Shown here: in pieces, positions 913 to 47,980 of the stretch
Layout: each line of letters opens with the position of its first letter
Numbering within the stretch: the first letter of the stretch is position 1
Source: Pseudomonadota bacterium
Lineage (GTDB): Bacteria; Pseudomonadota; Gammaproteobacteria; Burkholderiales; Casimicrobiaceae
DNA length: 64,000 nucleotides
Reading direction: 5' to 3'
NCBI GenBank assembly: GCA_018241785.1
Contig: JAFEDF010000054.1
Location: 1 to 64,000, forward strand
Program-made: the position numbers and the translations under genes
Notes under the pieces: generated by a model
What the model saw: only the letters and a program-made list of their open reading frames with translations
The model's database searches: none
Told to the model about the DNA's origin: nothing

Positions 913-1053
913 GTGTGGCACCGCGCTCTACACCGGCCGCGTACCGCGACCGAACTCGTGCCTCTGGGCGAGGCTCGAGGTGTGGCGCCGCGCTCTACAC
1001 CGGCCGCGTACCGCGGCCGAACTCGCGCGGCCGCCACGCCTCGAGCCTCGCCC
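913..1053. repeat. Palindromic element P0a with an adjacent extra core copy
   Basis: Arms at about 966-992 (GGGCGAGGCTCGAGG...) and 1025-1053 (...CCTCGAGCCTCGCCC) are inverted complements. They flank a core containing GCGCTCTACACCGGCCGCG at 990-1008 and CCGCGGCCGAACTCGCGC at 1010-1027. A second copy of the core lies 67 bp upstream: GTGTGGC at 913-919 recurs at 980-986, and the CTCTACACCGGCCGCGTACCGCG block is repeated. The region lies between the convergent ends of dnaE2 and the XdhC-like gene. The core is the reverse complement of the one at 1228-1322 and is shared with the large palindromes at 12.7 and 47.7 kb. Confidence 0.8.
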
Positions 1054-1227
1054 GTATGCCGCACGTCCAGAACGCTGCCGGCTGCGGAATCGCACACGAC
1101 ATCGCGCGCGTGCCGTACCTCTGCCCCACCCGGTGCGCAGTCGTTGCAGAACGTTCGCGCGAGCGCGGGGAGTCTGGGCACGATCGATGCGCACGCGCGG
1201 GGCAGTCAGGGTGCGCCGGACGCACGA

Positions 1228-1322
1228 GTTCGGGGGAAGCCGGGGTGCGGCCGACGCGCGAGTTCGGCCGCGACGCGGCCGGTGCAGAGCGCGTCGGCCG
1301 CACCCCGGCTCCGCCCCCGAAC
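1228..1322. repeat. Palindromic element P0b
   Basis: The left arm 1228-1259 (GTTCGGGGGAAGCCGGGG...) is the near-perfect inverted complement of 1289-1322. The centre holds the family core: GCGCGAGTTCGGCCGCG, then CGCGGCCGGTGCAGAGCGCG, with a perfect inner hairpin at 1266-1280. The arm sequence is unrelated to that of P0a or of the larger copies; only the core is shared. No coding potential is supported. Confidence 0.8.
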
Positions 1323-12696: not shown

Positions 12697-12978
12697 AGGG
12701 AAGCTCTGCGAAACGGGAACGGACCCTGTGTCCGCGATCGGCCGCGCCGGGAAGCGGCGGCGATGCCGCGGCGCGCGAGTTCGACCGCGATGGCCGAGGG
12801 AGCGGGGTACCGTGACGCGCGAGTTCGGCTGCGGAACGCAGCCGGTGTCTGAGCCCGTCACGGTACCCCGCTCTCTCGGCCTCCACGGTCGGTGTAGAGC
12901 GCGCCGCGGCATCGCCGCCGCTTCCCGGCGCGGCCGATCGCGGACACAGGGTCCGTTCCCGTTGCGCAGAGCTTCCCT
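12697..12978. repeat. Large nested palindrome P1 (282 bp)
   Basis: The left arm from 12697 (AGGGAAGCTCTGCG...) and the right arm ending at 12978 (...GCAGAGCTTCCCT) are inverted complements over about 80 bp with essentially one mismatch. A second, inner palindrome of 90 bp (12792-12881, arms GGCCGAGGGAGCGGGGTACC) sits in the middle. Its centre is the hairpin GGCTGCG-GAA-CGCAGCC. Both units carry the family core (GAGTTCG... / ...CGGTGT). It fills the gap between the convergent ankyrin gene and TonB-receptor gene. The receptor's TAG stop (complement of 12977-12979) is made by the element end. It may act as a bidirectional RNA hairpin terminator or be a non-autonomous mobile element. Confidence 0.92.
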
Positions 12979-47082: not shown

Positions 47083-47697
47083 ATGCCCCTGCCCGCCTTC
47101 TTTGCCGCGGCCCCGCGCATCGTCATGCGCGACCCGTTGGCCGAACTGCTCGGCGCCGCCGCAGGCGGGCTGATCGACTACGGCTATGCCGACGCCGTGC
47201 GCCTCGCCGGGCATTCGTGTCCGACGGTCGCGGGCGCCTACCTGATGGCGCGCGCCGGCCTGCGCGCGCTGTATGGCGATGAGCCCGCCGAGCGCGGCGG
47301 CGTCGCGGTGACGATGAGCGCGGCGGAAGCGGAGGGCACGACCGGCGTGATCGCCCAGGTGTTCACGCTGATCACCGGCGCAGCGGCGAACAACGGCTTC
47401 CACGGCATCGCCGGCCGCTTCGTACGGTATGGCCTCCTCGACTACAACGGCGGGGATCCGCGCAGCGTCGCGAGCCTTCGCCGCAACGATTCCGGCGACA
47501 CCGTGCACGTGTCGATGGATCTCTCCGACGTACCGCCGGCACCCGAGATGCGCACGCTGATGGGACGCGCACTCGCGCCCGGTGCCGCGGACGAGGACCG
47601 CGCCGGCTTTGCCGCGGCGTGGCAGGATCGCGTGCGCCGGCTGCTGCTCGAGCACGCCGACGACGCCCGCGTGATCCGCGTCGAGCGGCGCGCGTAG
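47083..47697 (+). CDS. FmdE-like domain protein
   Basis: ATG 47083 gives 204 residues; an in-frame GTG at 47074 is an alternative. The GHSCPTVAGAYLMARAGLRAL motif near residue 42 matches the FmdE family, first named from molybdenum formylmethanofuran dehydrogenase operons. Other conserved-looking stretches are GLIDYGYADAVRL and ITGAAANNGFHG. The Cys and His of the motif suggest metal binding; the function in betaproteobacteria is unknown. The gene lies 35 bp after bkdB on the same strand. Its TAG stop (47695-47697) is the first three bases of palindrome P2. Confidence 0.72.
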   Translation: MPLPAFFAAAPRIVMRDPLAELLGAAAGGLIDYGYADAVRLAGHSCPTVAGAYLMARAGLRALYGDEPAERGGVAVTMSAAEAEGTTGVIAQVFTLITGAAANNGFHGIAGRFVRYGLLDYNGGDPRSVASLRRNDSGDTVHVSMDLSDVPPAPEMRTLMGRALAPGAADEDRAGFAAAWQDRVRRLLLEHADDARVIRVERRA

Positions 47698-47980
47698 GGA
47701 AGCTCTGCGAAACGGGAGCGGACCGTGTTTCAGCGATCGGCCGCGCCGGGTCGAGCGGTGGGGATGCACAGGCGCGCTCTACACCGACCGTGGAGGCCGA
47801 GGGAGCGGGGTACCGTGACGCGCGAGTTCGGCTGCGGAACGCAGCCGGTGTTTGAGCCCGTTACGGTACCCCGCTCCCTCGGCCTTCGCGGTCGAACTCG
47901 CGCGCCGCGGCATCCCCGCCGCTTCCCGGCGTGGCCGATCGCTGAAACACGGTCCGTTCCCGTTTCGCAGAGCTTCCCTA
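47695..47980. repeat. Large nested palindrome P2 (286 bp)
   Basis: Ends TAGGGAAGCTCTGCG (47695) and CGCAGAGCTTCCCTA (ending 47980) are perfect inverted complements. The outer arms then match with a degenerate stretch around 47750-47775. An inner 90-bp palindrome (47795-47884) is nearly identical to that of P1, three differences in 90, and has the same GGCTGCG-GAA-CGCAGCC centre. The outer core half CTCTACACCGACC lies in the left arm here but in the right arm in P1, so the outer unit is inverted relative to the inner. It fills the convergent junction between the FmdE-like and DUF1993 genes. Confidence 0.92.

Follow-up and report, generated by a model that had tools for sequence, protein, structure and literature searches.

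A lineage-specific family of MITE-like palindromes in two Burkholderiales congeners, with mirrored arms that have evidently been copied from one another

RUP of Streptococcus pneumoniae and the Correia/NEMIS elements are small, non-coding, palindromic intergenic MITEs with terminal inverted repeats, TA ends and a TA target, RUP being attributed to IS630-Spn1, and the ERIC/IRU of enterobacteria are imperfect palindromes that lie between genes and end in TA (PMC2229807). The element family described here resembles RUP and Correia/NEMIS in its many intergenic copies, terminal inverted repeats and TA ends. Compared by description, however, those elements measure 107–155 bp whereas the present element is about 280 bp long and nested, with two asymmetric bulge pairs, and no partner IS with the same ends was found here to correspond to the IS630-Spn1 of RUP. 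ERIC/IRU are comparable as intergenic imperfect palindromes with TA termini but differ, again by description, in size, in lineage and in that the present element strongly prefers convergent-gene junctions. Likeness to REP/BIME with RAYT lies in intergenic hairpins, conserved non-paired bases and an arrangement in groups and tandem half-units; those systems, however, consist of a short hairpin and a Y1 transposase as opposed to a 280-bp TA-flanked element with terminal repeats in a genome (G000) with no Y1_Tnp.

Template switching homogenises the arms of inverted repeats and inverts their spacers (PMC8604942), makes compensatory changes in a single event (PMC8794818) and in E. coli converts quasipalindromes to palindromes (PMC7202029). 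Quasipalindrome mutagenesis, as seen in E. coli thyA and lacZ reporters, yeast inverted repeats and RNA genes, has arm homogenisation, spacer inversion and paired changes in common with the family described here. In contrast with those reporters, the present case is a dispersed mobile family with 80–130-nt arms, and a reconstructed history takes the place of a measured mutation rate.

The DNA analysed (the window, 64,000 nucleotides) belongs to G000, a Burkholderiales MAG of a soil bacterium (3.49 Mb, 262 contigs), and was compared with G011, the congener nearest to G000 (XdhC 93%); both are fragmented MAGs, presumably from short reads. Family statistics were computed on fetched genome stretches (loci designated by L-numbers), and the locus comparison of G011 with G000 spanned approximately 1.25 Mb of G011. 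The features of the window locus (899–1404), its neighbours and the full-length copies P1 and P2 are as follows.

1–882, + strand: 3' part of a DnaE2-like error-prone DNA polymerase gene, the left neighbour, running towards the array (NCBIfam PRK05672, E 3.8e-85; Pfam HHH_6)
899–961, + strand: unit 1, left arm and core (925–958) without a right arm; no hairpin
966–1053, - strand: unit 2, full hairpin with core at 992–1025 and arms GGGCGAGGCTCGAGGYGTGGCG
992–1025, - strand: core of unit 2, CGAGTTCGGCCGCGGTACGCGGCCGGTGTAGAGC, a short stem with the asymmetric bulge GAGTTC opposite GTGTAGA
1054–1198, no strand: spacer between units 2 and 3, missing at the orthologous G011 site
1199–1232, + strand: half unit, arm and GAGTTCG, in tandem with the left half of unit 3 (34-bp direct repeat, 82%)
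1228–1322, + strand: unit 3, full hairpin with core at 1259–1290 and arms GTTCGGGGG(CGG)AGCCGGGGTGCGGCCGACGC
1319–1404, + strand: 15-bp tandem repeat GAACGAGCGCCTCGC, directly adjoining unit 3
1434–2450, - strand: XdhC-family gene, the right neighbour, convergent with the DnaE2-like gene (Pfam XdhC_C, E 2.1e-39; XdhC_CoxI, E 2.9e-21)
12698–12977, + strand: P1, full-length 280-bp element with terminal repeat GGGAAGCTCTGCGAAACGGGAACGG and outer and inner cores
47697–47978, - strand: P2, full-length 282-bp element with TA on both sides, its outer core inverted relative to P1

The PRK05672 match falls under the full-length cut-off because the contig start cuts the DnaE2-like gene. This gene contains an in-frame 12-bp tandem repeat (105–187; SDAA/SDAT repeats), part of which may be missing from the shorter matches in G011 and G015. 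The 15-bp tandem repeat beside unit 3 (1319–1404) is absent in G011. Rfam gave no matches in the window at the gathering threshold.

Mirrored arms on a common core, claimed for 966–1053 and 1228–1322 in the original prediction, were confirmed by core-anchored arm alignment (25/28 positions complementary in unit 2 and 29/33 in unit 3), and repeat finding gave the same arms. Single-stranded DNA folding yielded -51 kcal/mol for unit 2 (z -10.2) and -54.3 kcal/mol for unit 3 (z -8.5), with none of 200 shuffles as good. With up to 3 mismatches allowed, the window contains four occurrences of the core pattern (expected 0). Units 2 and 3 are full hairpins, but the copy at 925–958 has neither right arm nor hairpin, the fold of unit 1 being no better than that of its shuffles (z +0.6). 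The array consists of repeated half-units, a 67-bp direct repeat (87%) linking unit 1 to unit 2 and the 34-bp one (82%) standing before unit 3. The arms had also been called completely different, which holds with respect to P1 and P2, similarity to their arms being weak or absent (shuffle p 0.035–0.24), but not otherwise, as units 1 and 2 have similar arms (score 18 versus a null of 5) and the arm of unit 3 closely resembles that of a copy at a different G011 locus (contig 102; score 13–17 versus a null of 4).

Full-length copies of the family measure 260–298 bp. The main form, approximately 280 bp long, is a nested palindrome in which a conserved asymmetric core occupies the tip and the bulge pair occurs a second time further out. 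Both the inner and the outer pair consist of GAGTTC opposite GTGTAGA or a close variant of it, and P1 and P2 differ in how the outer bulges are oriented relative to the inner ones. A BLAST query with the core located approximately 40 places in G000. The 18-mer at the ends of P1 and P2 was counted 97 times in this genome, as opposed to 0 for the reversed control, at approximately 70 places, several of which are truncated where a contig ends; the family end common to these places, GGGAAGCTCTGCGAAACG, is mostly present as inverted pairs. TA was noted on both sides of 10 of 18 clean-ended copies, usually as CTA...TAG. According to a simple codon-composition classifier, convergent-gene junctions hold 25 of the 34 classifiable copies and divergent junctions none. 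In several copies (e.g., P2, L028 and L072), the flanking TA is followed by a G of the element, whose edge thus supplies the last base of a TAG stop codon to one of the genes or to both.

Within the genus, the core was found in G000 and G011 only, apart from an odd match in G004 that was rejected as a family member for want of a proper core stem. A search of 397 other Burkholderiales genomes for the core pattern gave nothing save one 51-base match without a core stem, and plasmid and phage collections held no match to the family. BLAST matches in other congeners, which might have indicated a wide distribution, appear to be coding DNA without the core. The family is confined, in the genomes searched, to G000 and G011. 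At a further locus (L004:1501–2410, G000 contig 120), a putative acetyltransferase gene is bracketed by two small-type hairpins, approximately 840 bp apart, whose arms are near-identical; the G011 sequence differs there, and the segment between them was possibly mobilised.

The element is short, non-coding and multi-copy, has terminal inverted repeats and is associated with TA target duplication and empty orthologous sites, all of which are features of MITEs. We call it MITE-like, the label being limited since no transposase source with matching ends was found: DDE_3, DDE_Tnp_1 and Y1 searches of G000 revealed no transposase with ends matching those of the palindrome (GGGAAGCTCTGCG). A resident IS5-like partner was rejected since DDE_Tnp_1 is absent from G000, a REP/RAYT system since Y1_Tnp (PF01797) had no match in G000 (the control was positive in 5 of 14 known genomes) and a resident IS630-like partner since the single full DDE_3 element has different ends (GTGTCGTGAGTTA). 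This IS630-type element, in L350 (G000 contig 187), is nevertheless also flanked by CTA...TAG, the same target as that of the palindromes. The TA or CTA...TAG pattern itself suggests an IS630-type transposase that would act in trans.

Comparison of orthologous loci identified empty G011 sites at five closely examined loci (L008, L012, L046, L062 and L072) and sites filled in both species at L007/L191, L014/L201, L017/L228 and the small-type pair L343/L348. At the window locus, one arm had been predicted to match the ancestral flank and the other to be absent. What G011 contains instead is a short, core-less hairpin, GTCtCGGGGcGCGG CGA CCGCaCCCCcGAC, with short versions of both outermost arms: one half matches the left arm of unit 1 (p 0.002) and the other the right arm of unit 3 (p 0.003), the two matches overlapping in mid-hairpin. 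The difference reflects either entry of the core into an older hairpin or loss of the centre in G011, and outgroups cannot polarise the change. The first of these possibilities, taken as a general account, would have the core insert at the tip of pre-existing hairpins, such as bidirectional terminators between convergent genes, so that the arms would be older than the core. The G011 hairpin is as expected from such insertion, and the nesting of P1 and P2 (bulge, arm, bulge) resembles a core within a core. Centre deletion, however, explains the G011 hairpin equally well and was seen in L046 and L066 (a centre-deleted form is also present at L068), while none of the five well-examined empty sites has a pre-existing hairpin that bears the arms of the element. 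We consider this account improbable.

The history of the arms was traced in 24 full-length copies, which were aligned and paired through a consensus fold; copies at contig ends were left out as fold-back artefacts, and 14 were kept. These 14 copies contained 39 complementary double changes, 2 non-complementary double changes and 57 single-arm changes. At the observed rate of change of about 4% per arm, independent changes would produce 2.8 doubles of any kind and approximately one complementary double. Shuffling of right arms among copies gave a mean of 10.4 complementary doubles and a maximum of 24, with none of 1000 shuffles reaching 39; copies share ancestry, and the 39 doubles, not all of them independent, represent 25 distinct changes. 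Larger changes were also mirrored. The same 10-bp deletion is present in both arms of L028 and in one arm of L033, L050 and L020, and in L228 (G011) the right arm mirrors the left (99%) and the outer bulge is symmetric whereas the G000 orthologue, L017, is asymmetric (72%). The centre is inverted between orthologues L007/L191 and L343/L348, and an outer arm segment was exchanged in L014/L201. Identity of outer arms was 0.84 within a locus as opposed to 0.69 between loci. The arms have evidently been recopied from each other, and paired changes, overwrites and inversions are what template switching between the arms of inverted repeats is known to produce.

Paired changes could in principle arise by ordinary compensatory mutation if selection maintained a base-paired hairpin in RNA or DNA, with no copying at all. 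Long stems in almost all copies and the conserved bulges of the core agree with such selection, and between convergent genes the element might plausibly serve in termination or RNA processing. Doubles (39) are nevertheless almost as frequent as singles (57) where independence would give approximately 3 of any kind, and there is no wobble excess: single changes (14 G-T, 22 A-C and 21 other) lean away from G-T and 18 of the 39 doubles are transversions, which is at odds with selection on RNA pairs by way of wobble. The mirrored 10-bp deletion, the overwriting of a whole arm in L228 with loss of bulge asymmetry and the inverted centres also argue against compensatory mutation, which we regard as an improbable source of the pairing.

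Short-read assembly of palindromes might likewise make arms match, and is the main risk to the analysis since merging of near-identical arms by the assembler could create some of the paired changes. Its effect is visible at contig ends, where eight copies within approximately 100 bp of an end have exactly or nearly mirrored flanks; duplication of host flanks at these loci (L027, L033, L034, L040, L059, L312, L323 and L338) was rejected in favour of contig-end fold-back. Contigs that start or end in a mirrored palindrome flank (e.g., L034:1–60, L040:1–36 and L323:1–53) were noted in the same connection, and such fold-back could mislead annotation or studies of repeats. With contig-end copies excluded, however, interior copies have unmirrored flanks and keep many one-arm differences and the conserved asymmetric bulges. 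Side-specific sites also agree between the two independent assemblies (12 in L014/L201). The retention of single-arm differences and the arm-specific sites common to both species speak against assembly merging as a general effect, and it is quite unlikely that the matching of arms is an artefact of this kind.

Whether host DNA is also copied was judged from the flanks. According to the original prediction, host DNA next to the core hairpin would be copied by snap-back priming from it, every locus thus taking its arms from its own flank. Among 16 recent clean-ended copies, mirroring of flanks beyond the TA was absent (1.97 versus a null of 2.22 from flanks of different copies), and on this basis snap-back was largely rejected as the general origin of arms. 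A clear exception was noted at hemB, the only one among 18 older copies, where 34 of 39 nt of the 3' end of the gene are repeated in inverted orientation past the right-hand terminus of the element, in G000 and G011 alike (L014:1352–1694, G000 contig 258; L201:15272–15598, G011). The mirrored tail scores 21.5 as opposed to a null maximum of 8 and includes the LDAAAWLQRR codons and stop; since the HemB model extends to the last residues of this tail, hemB is the likely source of the inverted copy. An inverted tail at the same position is missing in most relatives. At hemB 3' ends of two other congeners (L364 and L367), tails match inverted downstream sequence, which looks like the work of other palindromic repeat families that supply the gene end.

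Thus, mirroring of host sequence occurs as predicted but is exceptional, and the part of the snap-back model that stands is the recopying of arms from each other as opposed to the mirroring of host flanks by the core on arrival. Moreover, the copies move together with their arms (approximately 70 places for the main form), both outermost arms of the window match the core-less G011 hairpin, and arms recur at unrelated loci, as that of unit 3 does in G011. Snap-back copying from each flank is accordingly a highly improbable account of the arms. Overshoot of copying into flanking host DNA probably does happen, rarely, hemB being one clear old locus. A related account, which is unlikely, is that mirror copying happens so often in these hairpins as to be the usual course of their evolution, with overshoot as at hemB slowly building new, locus-specific palindromes from host sequence and the conserved asymmetric core serving as start site or hairpin-stabilising signal.

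The window units are probably decayed and rearranged members of a lineage-specific family of MITE-like palindromes, with arms recopied after insertion. The full TA-flanked element often sits where the stop codons of convergent genes meet, and would insert through the presumed action in trans of an IS630-type transposase. After insertion, replication template switching may lead the polymerase to copy one arm with the other as template, such that one arm is rewritten as the mirror of the other and substitutions, indels and arm segments change pairwise; the same switching would sometimes invert the centre. Arms would in this way diverge among loci yet stay mirrored within a locus, with the core staying recognisable. 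Deletions of the centre between short direct repeats, together with local duplications, could then give short and partial units such as those at 899–1322. Descent of the short window units from the full element is suggested by the core and by intermediate units, on which it rests because the P1 and P2 arms show no clear homology to the short arms of units 2 and 3.

Mirror-arm copying error is known mainly from laboratory genes, and paired changes in stems are usually read as proof of selected RNA structure. The approximately 70 dispersed palindromes represent a natural, large-scale case in which paired changes, mirrored deletions and inversions look like arm copying, and provide a set of loci ready for the measurement of natural template switching. 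They also call for caution, in that covariation in palindromic repeats need not mean function. For the family itself, copying between arms explains how one mobile hairpin comes to have mirrored arms that seem unrelated at different loci.
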